A stretch of DNA of 64,000 nucleotides. It comes from Methanoregula sp. PtaB.Bin085. Lineage in GTDB: Archaea > Halobacteriota > Methanomicrobia > Methanomicrobiales > Methanospirillaceae. Position 1 is the first letter of the stretch. Each line of letters opens with the position of its first letter. The translations under genes were made by a program, and so were the position numbers. The stretch spans positions 186,001 through 250,000 of the forward strand of contig NZ_MVQB01000027.1 in the NCBI RefSeq assembly GCF_002067035.1, written 5' to 3'. Positions 25,797 to 31,989 of this stretch are shown here, piece after piece. Under the pieces are notes generated by a model. That model did no database searches. It saw only the letters and a list, made by a program, of their open reading frames with translations, and was not told where the DNA came from.

Positions 25797-27731
25797 TCAC
25801 ACGACGAGGACGAAGTTGAATGCTATCAGCGCGATGATCAGCAGGATGCAGGAATGCTTGACGCCCGCTGCAAGCGATGACTCCCCCATCTGTCCGGCAA
25901 TGAGCCCGGAAAAGATGGCCTGGACAAGGCAGGCATGGTACAGGAGCCTGCTGAAGGTCATGATGGGGATCGATCCGATGCCGGAGAGTGCGCCCGTGGC
26001 CGGGAGCCCCTGGGTGGAAATATTCGCAAGGACCGGCAGGAACTGCGTGGTCAGTACGCCCACAACGAACAGGAAGACGAAGAACGAGAGGTACACGATC
26101 GCCGTGTAAATGAACATCTCGGAGAGGCGCTCCTTTTTGAGGATCTCGGTCATCTTGGCATCGCTCGATGCGATGGAGAGGACCTCGCCGATCTGCCCGC
26201 TCATCTCGCTTGCCTTGGTGATCAGGGTAACTGTTCGTGCAATGGAGGGGGTGCTGACCCGCTCCTCGAAACGCATCAGCGCCTCGGTGAAGTTGGCGCC
26301 CCATTCCATGTCCCGCTTGATCCGCCGGATCTCGTAGCTGAGCAGCCCGAGATTGGTATTCACCATGATGGCGATGGCCTGTGCTATGGTGAGGCCTACC
26401 TGGTTGATACCCGCCATCCGCTCGAGGAAATCCGGGATGAGCGCCTGGATGCCAAGAACCTTGCGGGACCAGATCTCGTAGAAGACGGCGTACGGGATGA
26501 GGATCATGAGGAGCGCGATAACGATGTGATCGTCGACGACCGTTATGTACGTCTCGATATCTGCGTAATGCGGGGCTCTCAGGAACACGATGATGATGTA
26601 GATCAGCGCAACCGGGACGGTGACGTAAAGGGTATGGTTGGCGTTCGAGATGAAGCTCTCCAGCGGGTGCTTCAGGTGGTATACAAGGTTCCGGAGCTGG
26701 TCGTACTTCTTCAGCTGCTCAAAAAGGGTATCCTCGCCCGTCTTTTTGACAATGGTGACATCGGAGAATGTGTGGAGCCACTTGGTCCTGACATACCGTT
26801 CGGTCTTCTCGGTCTTGATGGAGATGAGATCGATTAAGAGGATGAAGACGAGCGAACCGATAGGCAGCACGAGGTAGGTGACCAGCGCCAGCTGTATCAC
26901 GGCAGAACCGCCCATCATCCCCATGACCACCATGATGATGATCAGGAAAAGGGGGCCCGCGACAAACAGGGTCACATAGGATTCGGCAACAATGGAGAGC
27001 ACATTCAGGAACTGCCGCTGCTCGAACCGGGCTTCCTCCTGGTACAGGCGCACCCGCATCGAGAGGAACTCGGCCATGTCCCCGCCGCTCTCAATCACGG
27101 AGAGGAGGTCTTCGAGGAAATCCTTGAGCTTTTCCGAGGGGGTGGTCTCAGAGAGGTGACGGATTGCCGAGACCACGTCATACCCGAAGAACTCCGCGTC
27201 CCGTACGATCTGCCTGAACTCAAGGGCAACCTCGCCATAGACATTCGCCCGGTCGGAGAGCGAGACGAAGATCGTCATCAGCTGGGCGCCGCCCCGGCGC
27301 ATCGCGTACATGTAGGCAACAGCATTGTGCAGTGTCAGGTTGATCTTGATCTTCCGGTTGTTCTTCTCGAGAGCTGGCAGCCGCAGGAGAACGGCATACC
27401 CGATGAACGTACCGGCAATGAAAGATGCAAGAACGACGATGACCTGCATGTACTGCGATGGATACACGGTCTGGAAAAAGACCGGCATCTGGATATCAAA
27501 CACGTTGTAGATGCCCGCCCGGGTTGTCAGTGCCTGGACGCTGAGATAGGCACTTGCAACAAAACCAAGAACGGCAAAGACGATCCCGGTAAGGACGGCG
27601 ATCTTTGCCGAGCGCCAGAGGTACTGGTCAAGGGTCATCCCGCTCCTTGCAGATACCATGTCCGCATGGAGGCTGTGGTAACGGAGCGGATCGCGTTTTA
27701 CCCATTTCAGGAAATGATCCCGTATTTTCAT
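25797..27731 (-). CDS. Type IV pilus/Tad-like membrane platform protein (T2SF domain)
   Basis: The 644-residue product has two type II secretion F domains with several transmembrane helices each. N-terminal helices lie around residues 45-68 and 92-115, with further groups near residues 245-300, 360-410 and at the C-terminus. The soluble parts resemble archaeal pilus platform proteins (LKDFLEDLLSVIESGGDMAE; ITKASEMSGQIGEVL). It would anchor the pilus assembly ATPase encoded just upstream (four-base overlap). No pilin or prepilin peptidase gene lies in the window, so the assembled structure is unknown. Confidence 0.9.
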   Translation of the reverse strand: MKIRDHFLKWVKRDPLRYHSLHADMVSARSGMTLDQYLWRSAKIAVLTGIVFAVLGFVASAYLSVQALTTRAGIYNVFDIQMPVFFQTVYPSQYMQVIVVLASFIAGTFIGYAVLLRLPALEKNNRKIKINLTLHNAVAYMYAMRRGGAQLMTIFVSLSDRANVYGEVALEFRQIVRDAEFFGYDVVSAIRHLSETTPSEKLKDFLEDLLSVIESGGDMAEFLSMRVRLYQEEARFEQRQFLNVLSIVAESYVTLFVAGPLFLIIIMVVMGMMGGSAVIQLALVTYLVLPIGSLVFILLIDLISIKTEKTERYVRTKWLHTFSDVTIVKKTGEDTLFEQLKKYDQLRNLVYHLKHPLESFISNANHTLYVTVPVALIYIIIVFLRAPHYADIETYITVVDDHIVIALLMILIPYAVFYEIWSRKVLGIQALIPDFLERMAGINQVGLTIAQAIAIMVNTNLGLLSYEIRRIKRDMEWGANFTEALMRFEERVSTPSIARTVTLITKASEMSGQIGEVLSIASSDAKMTEILKKERLSEMFIYTAIVYLSFFVFLFVVGVLTTQFLPVLANISTQGLPATGALSGIGSIPIMTFSRLLYHACLVQAIFSGLIAGQMGESSLAAGVKHSCILLIIALIAFNFVLVV

Positions 27732-29452
27732 TGGATTACCCTGCGCAGGTCGGCGATGTGGGCAAGCACATTGGCGGGATCGATGTTATATGCGTGAAAA
27801 ACCGTTGCTACCGAGATGTAGTCCCGGATCCCCTGTTTCTTCATCTCCTCCAGAAGGTTCTTGCGGACCTGGATCTCGGAATCCAGTTTTTCCCGTGTCC
27901 AGCCCCGCCGTTCGGCAATGTCCGAGTAGACCTGGGACCTGCCGGTGTACGTAAACCGGTCCCTGACCGGATCGTAGACGAACACGTTGTTGACACGGAG
28001 GTTGCCGGTTGCAGGATCGATGCCTGCAATCTCGACGATCTCCTGCACCCTGCGGAACCGTTCGGTCCCGTGATACACGAGCGCCTGAACACTGATGATG
28101 TTGAGCGCCTGGACCATGTTCCGCGGAACGTTCAGGGGTTCGCTCTCGAGACGGTGGATGGCCGCATCGACACTCCCGGCGTGCATGGTGGAGAAAGTGG
28201 TATGCCCGGTATTCATTGCCTGGAAGAGTGTCTGGGCTTCAACGCCACGGACTTCGCCCACGAGGATGAACTCGGGCCGCTGACGCATCGCGGCACGCAG
28301 GAGATCGAACATGCTGATGGCGTTGCCACCCTCCGAGAGTGCCTCGCGGGTGACGCTCGCAATCCAGTTATCGTGATACAGGGTAATCTCCCGCGTATCC
28401 TCGATGCTGACGACCTTGGCGACCGGCGGGATGAAGAGGGAGACCGCGTTCAGCGAGGTGGTTTTTCCCGATGCCGTCCCGCCGATGAAAAGAAGGCTCT
28501 TGTTGTTCTCGATGGCGAGCCAGAAATAGACGAGGGCGTCGGCGCTGAAGGTGCCGATCTCCATGAGCTCGACAGGAGAGAACGGCTCCTCACGGAACTT
28601 CCGGATGGTAAACGAGGTTCCCCGTGTCGTTACCTCCGTTCCCAGCGTCAGCTGGAGCCGCGAGCCTTCGGGAAGGGTTGCATCGACCATGGGCGAACCG
28701 GTCGATATGTGCTTCCCCGACCGCTGGGCAAGGGTGATGGCAAGCGAGTTCAGGACATCGGATTCGAAGGTGATGTTGGTTTTGATGTTCCGGTATTTCC
28801 GGTGGTAGAGGAACAGCGGGATCTTGTTGCCGTCGCAGGAAATATCCTCCAGGTTGGGGTCCTTCATCAGCGGATCGATCCGTGACCAGCCGATGAAATT
28901 CCGGATAAGGAAGTACTGGAGCTTATACAGGGTACTGTTTTCAAGAGAGATACCATAATCGTCGATGAGGGCATGCATCTTTTCGAGGAGGATCCGCTTG
29001 CGGTCCACCTTGATCTCGTCGGACGAGAGGATCAGGACATCCCTAAGATCTTCGTACAGCCGCTCGAGGAGTTCATATTCAAAATCCGACAGGGTCGGCT
29101 CGAACAGGAGATACTCCCGCTGGTTCGTGCGCCGGTTGAGGGCGATGATCACGAGCGATCGGCCTTTCTCGATCCAGTACTGGTCGACCAGCTCGTAATT
29201 GTCAGCAAGCCGGGGTGTGACAAGGGTCCCGTCCCGCTCAAAATCGTATTCAATGACCGCGGATCGCCGGGATCCCTGGAGGAGACGGAAATAATGGCGG
29301 TATGTTGCATCCGGTTTCTCCCTGGCTCCCGCTGCAGGGATACCTGCCAGAACAGTACCCGGCCCGGAACCTGCCTCTTCTGCAGCCTGGTGCAGGACAG
29401 GCCCTCCGGTCTCCCGGGTTCCTTCGGATCCGGTGGCTTCAGAATTCTCCAT
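27728..29452 (-). CDS. Type II/IV secretion system ATPase (VirB11/GspE family)
   Basis: The 574-residue ATPase should power assembly or secretion through the paired T2SF protein. Walker A GGTASGKTT is at about residues 324-332, an Asp box (SIEDTREI) follows at about 349, Walker B RPEFILVGEVRG is at about 392-403, and a His box (AMNTGHTTFSTMHA) follows. The first 50 residues are low complexity (Glu, Gly, Ala). The archaeal TadA-like N-terminal domain is present (EDISCDGNKIPLFLYHRKYR). It is transcribed divergently from the KaiC-like pair. Confidence 0.94.
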   Translation of the reverse strand: MENSEATGSEGTRETGGPVLHQAAEEAGSGPGTVLAGIPAAGAREKPDATYRHYFRLLQGSRRSAVIEYDFERDGTLVTPRLADNYELVDQYWIEKGRSLVIIALNRRTNQREYLLFEPTLSDFEYELLERLYEDLRDVLILSSDEIKVDRKRILLEKMHALIDDYGISLENSTLYKLQYFLIRNFIGWSRIDPLMKDPNLEDISCDGNKIPLFLYHRKYRNIKTNITFESDVLNSLAITLAQRSGKHISTGSPMVDATLPEGSRLQLTLGTEVTTRGTSFTIRKFREEPFSPVELMEIGTFSADALVYFWLAIENNKSLLFIGGTASGKTTSLNAVSLFIPPVAKVVSIEDTREITLYHDNWIASVTREALSEGGNAISMFDLLRAAMRQRPEFILVGEVRGVEAQTLFQAMNTGHTTFSTMHAGSVDAAIHRLESEPLNVPRNMVQALNIISVQALVYHGTERFRRVQEIVEIAGIDPATGNLRVNNVFVYDPVRDRFTYTGRSQVYSDIAERRGWTREKLDSEIQVRKNLLEEMKKQGIRDYISVATVFHAYNIDPANVLAHIADLRRVIQ

Positions 29453-29671
29453 ACGTGTGCTCCCTGCCTCTCCTCATGAGAGGATGCTCCCGGATTATAA
29501 TTCGGGAGATGCTTCTATATAACTATGCCCCGCTCCGGCAGTCCTGCTGCCCTCGGCAGGAACGTCTGATTCCTTTGTTTGATTCCTTTATCTGGGGGGA
29601 AGATCAGATAGATATATCTGAATGACCATGAGAGTTTCTCATACGGGTATTCTATCGTACGGGGGATCCGG
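29453..29671. promoter_or_regulatory. Divergent promoter region with dyads
   Basis: The region between the secretion ATPase gene and the KaiC-like genes has three dyads: CCTCTC/GAGAGG (29467-29483), a near-perfect 22-base palindrome CTCCCGGATTATAATTCGGG AG (29487-29508), and CAGATAGATATATCTG (29605-29620), which overlaps a TATA-like core. A TATA-like CTATATAAC at about 29514-29522 would serve the minus-strand pair. Shared control of the two gene pairs is an inference. Confidence 0.5.
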
Positions 29672-30499
29672 ATGCCAGCCGCGGTAAAACAGCGTATGCC
29701 TACAGGGATATCATCGCTCGATCCGATTCTCGACGGGGGTGTGCCGCCGGGATCCGTGATTCTTCTCCTCGGGGACCTGGGAGCGGGAAATGCCGAGTTC
29801 GTCTTTAGTTCCATGGTGAACAGCCTTGACGCGTCCGCGGCCGGGGAGCAGAAGGGAAACCGGGGCCCGAAAGAGATCTGGTATGTCACGATTACCCGGG
29901 TGAAGGAGGATATCAGGAACGAGATATTACAATCGTTCCATCTCGATAACATCGAGCGGCTGGTCGATACCATCCGCTTTGAGGATCTCTCCGAGCAGTA
30001 TTTCGATCACAGCGTTGTCCCGGACGAGTGGTACAGCCACAGCGATGTCTTCACCCGTCTGCAGAAGCGGACGGGCCAGGAGAGCATGGTCACCAGGCTC
30101 TCGAAGGTCATCGACTCGGTGCAGCCCGGCAGCCTCATCGTCATCGATTCGGTGACGGACCTTGCAACGCAGTTGTCTCAGCAGGATGCATGGAGCAACC
30201 TCTCCGGCTTTTTACGGGGTCTCCAGCGCGTATCGAAAACGCGGGGTATCACCAGCTACCTGCTTCTCTCGAGCGGCATCCTCGATTCCTCCCGTGAACG
30301 GGAACTTGCCGACATCGCGGATGCCGTTCTCCTCTTCCGGTGGGAGGAGACGCAGGGCGCCCGGCGGCAGCGGGTGATGTACTTCGAGAAGTTTCGGGGC
30401 GTGATGCCCCATCTCGAGGAACGCGACCTGGTGAAATTCGCTGTCAGGATCTCCGAGACCAGCGGTTTCGAAGTGAGCAACATCAGGGTGATTATATGA
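29672..30499 (+). CDS. KaiC/RAD55-like protein with degenerate Walker A
   Basis: The 275-residue product has the RecA/KaiC domain start PTGISSLDPILDGGVPPGSV, followed by GDLGAGNAEF where the P-loop GXXGXGKT should be. The catalytic Lys is Asn (residue 40) and the Thr is Ala, so ATP binding or hydrolysis is probably lost. The Walker B-like strand SLIVIDSVTDLAT remains. It overlaps the next gene, an intact paralogue, by four bases, so a pseudo-ATPase/active-ATPase pair is likely. Relatives include the archaellum regulator FlaH/ArlH. Confidence 0.85.
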   Translation: MPAAVKQRMPTGISSLDPILDGGVPPGSVILLLGDLGAGNAEFVFSSMVNSLDASAAGEQKGNRGPKEIWYVTITRVKEDIRNEILQSFHLDNIERLVDTIRFEDLSEQYFDHSVVPDEWYSHSDVFTRLQKRTGQESMVTRLSKVIDSVQPGSLIVIDSVTDLATQLSQQDAWSNLSGFLRGLQRVSKTRGITSYLLLSSGILDSSRERELADIADAVLLFRWEETQGARRQRVMYFEKFRGVMPHLEERDLVKFAVRISETSGFEVSNIRVII

Positions 30500-31197
30500 G
30501 TAAGGAGCGGGTCAAGGTCGGTATACCAGGCCTCGATGATATGCTCGGGGGCGGGCTTATCCCCGGGAGCATCACCTGTATCATCGGAACGTTCGGTACG
30601 GGAAAGACGACGTTCTCCCTTGAATTCGTCTGGGAAGGGCTCAAGAAGAACGAGCGGATCATCTACATCAGTCTCGAGGAACGGGAGGAGCGGATCATCT
30701 CGTACATGAAGCTGAAGGGGTGGGACGTGACACCGTTCATCAACAAGTCCCTGTTCATCATCAAGCTCGATCCCACCGATTTCAACATCGCCAACAACCG
30801 GATCAAAAACGAGCTTCCAAGACTCATTGAAGAGAAGCAGGCCAATCGTGTCGTGATTGACCCGATCTCACTCTTTGAGGACCTGTTCTCTACCGACGCG
30901 GAACGCCGGCGGGAGATGTACCGGTTCATCGAGGGGCTCCGCGACAGGAACTGCACGATCATGCTCACTTCGGAGACAGACCGCAACAATCCGTTCTCCA
31001 GCCGCCACGGTCTCATCGAGTACCTCTCGGATACCGTCATCCTCCTCCGGTATGTCCGGCCTACGGAGATCTCCGTCGATGTCCACCTTGCGCTGGAGGT
31101 CGTGAAGATGCGGATGTCCGCCCATTCCCGCGAGATCAAGCCGTACGACCTGAAGCAGGACCAGGTCGAGGTGTACTCAGAAGCGAACGTGTTTTAA
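30496..31197 (+). CDS. KaiC/RAD55-like ATPase, intact Walker A
   Basis: The 233-residue product starts MSKERVKVGIPGLDDMLGGG and has the P-loop GTFGTGKTT, then a Walker B-type VVIDPISLFED and a NCTIMLTSETD strand. It is a single-domain archaeal KaiC-like ATPase resembling ArlH. ATG 30496 sits in an ATGA overlap with the degenerate partner. The pair diverges from a secretion ATPase/platform pair, so it may regulate pilus assembly as ArlH does for the archaellum; this is inferred from context only. Confidence 0.88.
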   Translation: MSKERVKVGIPGLDDMLGGGLIPGSITCIIGTFGTGKTTFSLEFVWEGLKKNERIIYISLEEREERIISYMKLKGWDVTPFINKSLFIIKLDPTDFNIANNRIKNELPRLIEEKQANRVVIDPISLFEDLFSTDAERRREMYRFIEGLRDRNCTIMLTSETDRNNPFSSRHGLIEYLSDTVILLRYVRPTEISVDVHLALEVVKMRMSAHSREIKPYDLKQDQVEVYSEANVF

Positions 31198-31518: not shown

Positions 31519-31539
31519 CTTTTTTATCAATGATTTCTC

Positions 31540-31970
31540 AAGAGCATTTTTTAGATATAGATACCCGGTTTTTATTTTCAAATCGGATCCCGGTTTTTTC
31601 ATTCCAATCTCGATCACGATCGCAATCAAAAAACGTTCCGGAAAAATCGATCTGCGATTTTCAGATCAAAATCGATCAGCGATTTCCGGATCAAAAACGG
31701 ATCCCGATCTGCAGGAAAAAATCGATCCGCGATTGAAAACCCGGCCCGGACATCTTTCCACAGACGGGGCTTAAAATCGCGATCCGATTTTTGTACGAAA
31801 ATCGGATCCCGATTTGCAGGAAAAAATCGATCCCTGGTTTTTATTTTGAAATCGGATCCCGATTTTTCAATATCAATCGCGATTACGATCGCGATCAAAA
31901 ACCGTTCCGGAAAAATCGATCCGCGATTTTCAGACCAGAATCGGATCCCGGATTTTCTGCTCTTGAGAAA
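31540..31970. repeat. Repeat island 3: GATC-rich palindromic repeats
   Basis: Many interleaved units of the types AAATCGGATCCCGATTT, AAAATCGATCCGCGATTTT and CGATCACGATCGC, plus a longer unit with CCACAGACGGGGC followed by TTTTTGTACGAAAATCGGAT (31755-31806). Outlying copies occur at about 31271-31292. The long unit recurs inverted in island 4. The open frames across this block are low-complexity artefacts of the repeats. No gene is seen in 31198-32271. Confidence 0.75.
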
Positions 31971-31989
31971 TCATTCTCATGTTGTGAGA

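Follow-up and report, generated by a model that had tools for sequence, protein, structure and literature searches.

Why would a methanogen encode, opposite the genes of a pilus motor, two overlapping KaiC-like proteins of which one has lost the residues for ATP binding? The question is raised by a locus of Methanoregula sp. PtaB.Bin085 (order Methanomicrobiales, phylum Halobacteriota) within a stretch of 64,000 nucleotides (contig NZ_MVQB01000027.1, positions 186,001 to 250,000), hereafter the window. The relevant features, numbered from the first nucleotide of the window, are the following.

25797 to 27731, minus strand: F, a T2SSF/TadC-like platform membrane protein of 644 aa (PF00482, 109 bits)
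27728 to 29452, minus strand: E, a T2SSE/VirB11-type secretion ATPase of 574 aa (PF00437, 124 bits)
29453 to 29671, no strand: divergent intergenic region between E and K1
29487 to 29508, no strand: dyad CTCCCGGATTA/TAATTCGGGAG, between the E start and its TATA-like stretch
near 29512 (for E) and near 29612 (for K1): TATA-like stretches, recognized by eye
29672 to 30499, plus strand: K1, a KaiC-like pseudo-ATPase of 275 aa (PF06745, 52.3 bits)
29771 to 29800, plus strand: degenerate Walker A of K1, GDLGAGNAEF (from the sequence and the family tally)
30389 to 30397, plus strand: K-F-R of K1, at the place of the trans-acting KxR of KaiC (from the HMMER alignment to KaiC)
30496 (ATG) to 31197, plus strand: K2, an intact single-domain KaiC ATPase of 233 aa (TIGR03880, 330.9 bits)
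30586 to 30609, plus strand: intact Walker A of K2, GTFGTGKT (from the sequence)
31105 to 31113, plus strand: K-M-R of K2, the KxR finger (from the family tally)

The K1 and K2 open reading frames share a 4-bp ATGA that combines the stop codon of K1 with the start codon of K2, and the E and F frames, which likewise have four bases in common, diverge from this pair on the opposite strand. Where K2 has the Lys-Thr of Walker A, K1 has Asn-Ala. The original prediction, namely that the first of the two overlapping KaiC-like proteins has lost the Walker A Lys and Thr, that its partner is intact and that both diverge from a secretion ATPase/T2SF pair, is borne out by the sequence, the open reading frames, their strands, the PF00437 and PF00482 matches and the family tally given below. 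The adjacency of a T2SSE ATPase and a T2SSF platform protein in E and F is the arrangement that marks a type IV pilus system.

TATA-like stretches similar to those of the intergenic region are present by eye upstream in relatives. Of the 20 relatives scanned, four (L039, L041, L042 and L044) have a dyad of this kind, that of L045 is close, and half or degenerate versions are visible by eye in several further relatives; the dyad is possibly an operator of E/F rather than of K1/K2. The expectation that pilin genes elsewhere would stand under the same dyad failed: no second exact copy of the sequence at 29487-29508 exists anywhere in this genome, and none of the eight Pilin_N genes of the genome is on contig C27 or in the K1/K2/E/F locus. 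Archaeal pilins often stand alone, according to an excerpt of PMC4858521. On the 3' side of K2, a GATC-rich imperfect repeat array (31529-31975) contains 118-nt copies at 31557 and 31826 that are 86% alike, and the 18-nt arms of a perfect inverted repeat lie at its two ends (31529-31546 and 31958-31975); this array is perhaps a small non-coding mobile element, and a pattern guessed for the repeats 3' of K2 gave no match.

The loss of the ATP site is a property of the K1 family. Our alignment of 126 K1 proteins covers Methanomicrobiales as well as further families of the phylum sample, and 124 of the proteins have letters at the position of the Walker A Lys; this residue is present in just one of them and is replaced mostly by Asn, Ser, Ala or Gly in the rest, so that the P-loop defect is not due to chance or a sequencing slip. 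The catalytic Glu pair of KaiC is Thr-Arg in the window protein and Thr-Arg or similar across the family, and Glu occurs at neither position in any of the 124 proteins. Thus, K1 lacks both the Walker A Lys with Thr/Ser and the Glu pair that characterize active P-loop ATPases. Both proteins of the window score above the PF06745 cut-off of 26.6 bits (K1, 52.3; K2, 171.7), and TIGR03880 (KaiC_arch_3), with a cut-off of 249.45 bits, separates them: K2 obtains 330.9 bits over positions 1-224, and K1 obtains 25.9 bits.

The partner is intact in nearly all genomes. The Walker A Lys is present in 116 of the 121 K2 proteins, the Glu pair (as Glu or Asp/Gln) in 116 of the 121, and the KxR finger throughout (Lys in all 120 with letters, Arg in 121 of 121); the predicted fold of the window K2 has a pLDDT of 85.6. 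Genus g24 (L068-L072) is an exception: in all 5 loci, the K2 motif reads GTGRT in place of GTGKT, and the Glu pair is missing. Judging from the sequences, the live partner seems to have died there as well, so that the two genes can be kept together even when neither site is whole. Three of these five loci have the pair separated from E/F, and in L068 it is located beside TldD/PmbA-like genes. In several haloarchaeal K2 genes (L133-L137, L144 and L148), the open frame is far longer, and the KaiC domain is preceded by a segment rich in Gly and Asp that is probably disordered.

The two proteins occur, with few exceptions, in the same genomes. In the phylum sample (295 genomes), with thresholds chosen after the scores were known (E ≤ 1e-17 for K1 and E ≤ 1e-45 for K2) and with 21 of the 180 K1 matches, weak ones with E between 1e-8 and 1e-10, counted as no K1, K1 is present in 159 genomes, K2 in 155 and both in 154, five genomes having K1 alone and one K2 alone (phi 0.96). 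The order sample (150 genomes), for which the thresholds were also set after inspection of the scores, gives 100 genomes with K1 (E ≤ 1e-6, 5 of 105 genomes above this value being counted as without K1), 97 with K2, 97 with an E orthologue (at least 520 bits, lower scores being taken as paralogues, with a gap between 530 and 504 bits) and 109 with ArlH. Neither K2 nor the E orthologue occurs there without K1, and three K1 genomes have no K2 match and three have no E match; phi is 0.957 for K1 and E vs 0.17 for K1 and ArlH. Each of 30 chosen K1 genomes has a K2 above the curated cut-off, including 21 haloarchaea-like ones with the genes apart (by about 174 kb in G171), where the label haloarchaea-like rests on a Natrinema match and on Haloferax volcanii as a positive control for K2. 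Shared ancestry accounts for part of the agreement between K1, K2 and E; joint absence recurs in genera g1, g16, g20, g24 and g31, which also hold members with all three genes. K1 and K2 are a real, deeply conserved pairing.

Gene order is conserved in Methanomicrobiales. In 46 loci of this order, the sequence extends 4.5 kb or more upstream of K1, and 42 of them have F and E leftward followed by K1 and K2 rightward, so that the four genes are conserved together; the exceptions are L021, where E and F are not adjacent, and three g24 loci that have K1-K2 without E/F beside them. The 4-bp overlap of the K1 stop and K2 start is present in 68 of 86 loci, and no K1-K2 gene fusion was found among the loci scanned. 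Outside the order, the divergent arrangement appears in two f14 loci, one f31 locus and one f18 locus (L092, L094, L093 and L096), with E further off in the f18 locus, and in family f9 and others K1 and K2 are adjacent with E/F not nearby. In all 21 haloarchaea-like loci, neither E nor F nor a full-scoring K2 lies closer to K1 than about 8 kb; a weaker KaiC-like match (100 bits) about 5.4 kb from K1 in L114 was not counted as K2. The haloarchaeal relative of K1 in Natrinema is annotated as 'HTR-like protein', a phrase for which no paper was found among the literature searched; its neighbors are housekeeping and hypothetical genes, and a search of the annotation revealed no pilus genes within 7 kb. 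The link of the pair to a pilus is therefore firm in Methanomicrobiales and a few other lineages only. Taken together, the joint inheritance of a dead and a live KaiC protein and their proximity to a pilus motor in the methane-makers suggest a single mixed regulatory machine.

Which motor this machine might serve is indicated by the phylogeny of E. The genome encodes four T2SSE ATPases, namely the E protein of this locus, one on C24, one on C26 beside pilin genes and an ArlI-like one on C23 (C23:5727) beside the genome's own ArlH (C23:4445). A gene near the C24 ATPase (L161:11833-12627) encodes what we take, from its N-terminal sequence, to be a MinD/FleN-like protein, so that each of the three types of motor may be paired with its own kind of P-loop regulator. 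In the IQ-TREE phylogeny of 79 E sequences, the K1-linked E proteins of Methanomicrobiales form one clade (UFBoot 99), to which the E proteins of G054, G065 and G030 belong even though they are unlinked, and a FastTree of 49 sequences agrees. Three g24 genomes in which E is away from K1/K2 have kept an E of the same clade elsewhere (UFBoot 99; FastTree 1.0, f14 included), i.e. the partnership outlives linkage in these genomes. By contrast with these, the E proteins of genomes of the order that lack K1 (G014, G019, G034, G044 and G115) group with the C24 paralogue (UFBoot 100). For the haloarchaeal E, the tree gives little support either way on membership in the K1-linked clade (UFBoot 20), and the E of G200, which has no strong K1 match, is placed beside the K1-linked f14 E (UFBoot 85).

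These observations bear on the alternative that K1/K2 is a general signalling module whose proximity to a pilus operon in Methanomicrobiales arose by accident, whether regulatory or historical. In its favor are the haloarchaea-like genomes, in which the two genes are retained but widely separated and K1 is remote from E/F, and a KaiC homologue of H. volcanii, CirA (not equated here with K2), affects motility and cell-shape genes according to PMC13286277. Against an accidental neighborhood stand the loss and retention of K1/K2 together with this particular E across the order (phi 0.957) and the same-clade E that is kept even where it is unlinked. We consider this alternative rather unlikely, though worth weighing.

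The fold of K1 and its C-terminal finger suggest what a mixed machine might look like. The predicted fold (mean pLDDT 83.3, pTM 0.85) matches, as a model, PH0284 over nearly its full length (Z 22.8, rmsd 2.9, 216 aligned residues), KaiC CI (Z 22.4, rmsd 2.8, 216 aligned) and FlaH (Z 22.4, rmsd 3.1, 221 aligned; Z 21.9 for a second FlaH), and we treat the three as ties. In KaiC, the neighboring subunit contributes Lys224 and Arg226 (KxR) to the γ-phosphate, according to the relevant portion of PMC9599734. At the corresponding place, Lys is found in 104 and Arg in 100 of the 126 K1 proteins (by one count, Arg is replaced in 25 of them); 78 proteins have both residues, and none of the 126 lacks a basic residue there altogether. 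The stricter idea that K1 retains the KxR as such is weakened by this variation, which depends on the lineage: 20 of 21 haloarchaea-like K1 proteins have another residue in place of Lys, and other K1 proteins have lost Arg. The C-terminal block is conserved as a whole (mean 0.84 and 0.81), and the KxR thus does not stand out within it.

A K1 without a site of its own and with a finger fits beside a K2 that has a site. We tentatively propose, as the best of the readings though with a somewhat less than even chance of being correct, that K1 and K2 form one KaiC-type regulator, a mixed ring that tunes the pilus motor E in Methanomicrobiales. In this ring, K2 would bind and cycle ATP and K1, itself devoid of an ATP site, would complete the K2 site in trans through the KxR finger, of which it keeps at least a part; adding no site, K1 would fix the number of live sites and make the face of the ring asymmetric. 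In Methanomicrobiales, such a complex might dock on E (with F) and there permit or adjust the assembly of pili, much as ArlH acts on ArlI. Several observations weigh against this proposal: K2 is impaired as well in g24, L087 retains the Walker A Lys, the KxR varies and does not stand out from its block, haloarchaea-like K1 is remote from pilus genes, K1-K2 fusions were not found among the loci scanned, and the E of G200 groups with the K1-linked E of f14. A broader formulation, possible and on balance rather doubtful, would be an obligate two-part KaiC machine of Halobacteriota in which a finger-only pseudo-ATPase subunit lets the subunit ratio set the number of live sites, which would act in methanogens as an ArlH-like clutch of a non-archaellum pilus motor, and which would be unlinked in haloarchaea, its dead half being the 'HTR-like protein'.

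The same data can be read with K1 outside the ring, as a separate adaptor that binds K2 in the manner of KaiB or KaiA on KaiC. Co-occurrence and gene overlap fit any obligate partner, and K1 has a signature of its own, DLSxxYFxxSxVPxxWY, which is recognizable in haloarchaea-like K1 too and for which no counterpart was found in the K2 alignment. An external adaptor would nevertheless have no need of a nearly full-length KaiC fold or of a basic residue at the KxR position, and its probability appears low, if still worth weighing against the mixed ring.

That K1 is an active ATPase with non-canonical nucleotide binding is quite improbable. The Walker B Asp is retained in 125 of 125 K1 proteins, the P-loop glycines persist across the family and Lys is still present in L087; set against these remnants are the loss of Lys in 123 of 124 proteins and that of the Glu pair in 124 of 124. 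The single protein with the Lys, L087:7571-8419 (GDIGSGKNEF), is possibly an intermediate or a reversion.

That K1/K2 is a diverged ArlH of the archaellum hardly deserves credence, given that, despite the common fold (FlaH Z 22.4 and 21.9) and an ArlI-like neighbor E (404 bits), both proteins score under the ArlH cut-off, the true ArlH adjoins the ArlI-like ATPase on another contig, and 10 genomes of genus g24 that are listed without ArlH contain the pair. The scores on NF052589 (cut-off 215 bits) are 31.1 bits for K1 and 59.2 bits for K2, which, with the separate true ArlH on C23, led us to reject ArlH membership; the 404 bits of E are below the cut-off of 550 for the archaellum motor FlaI, and F is below the cut-offs for ArlJ, UpsF and BasF. 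Thus, of the ArlH-like two-component regulator that was originally suggested, the inactive/active pair and its co-inheritance endure, and ArlH membership is contradicted by the cut-offs, by the genome's own ArlH and by the phi of 0.17. The ArlH label is a fair analogy for a possible action on E, not a statement of family membership. The likeness to ArlH/FlaH (NF052589; 4yds, 4wia) is that of a lone RecA domain of the KaiC type, encoded close to an ATPase of the ArlI type and a platform protein; the differences are that K1/K2 diverges from a pilus-type E/F and that ArlH is one ATP-binding subunit of the archaellum (part of PMC8978795), whereas here there are two subunits, one of them dead. According to the same part of that source, ArlH binds ATP, stimulates ArlI and leaves ArlI on autophosphorylation (PMC8978795).

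With respect to other described systems, K2 is a full member of KaiC_arch_3 (TIGR03880), the listed entry of which names no partner. KaiC comprises two domains on a single polypeptide, each with an ATP site. K1 and K2 resemble cyanobacterial KaiC in fold and, for K2, in Walker A, Glu pair and KxR, and differ from it in being two genes with one ATP site. Inactivated KaiC homologues (iKaiC) are reportedly treated by Makarova in mBio in 2017. Such homologues are known in archaea and, like K1, contain a KaiC-like domain with a lost ATP site; in the section of PMC5847659 that describes them they form part of larger signalling proteins that also contain receiver or HalOD1 domains, whereas K1 is free-standing and tied to K2 by co-occurrence. 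KaiC families beside such pilus operons have already been published: Makarova 2016 (PMC4858521) reports, in the passage concerned, the arCOG01172/01173 families near VirB11/TadC operons in Methanomicrobia, possibly co-transcribed, and these are likely the K1/K2 genes studied here. That passage mentions neither an inactive member nor a pairing nor joint inheritance, and no paper on an obligate dead/live KaiC pair was found in the literature that could be searched; the obligate dead/live pairing is what appears to be new.

KaiC-like proteins have been proposed as archaeal signalling hubs, with a partner known for few of them, according to an extract of PMC4858521. Here, a dead K1 is almost never found without one live KaiC family, and the partner is thereby named outright. 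Haloarchaea carry both genes and have genetics. The pair would show whether non-catalytic subunits regulate KaiC rings and how pilus motors other than that of the archaellum are controlled.
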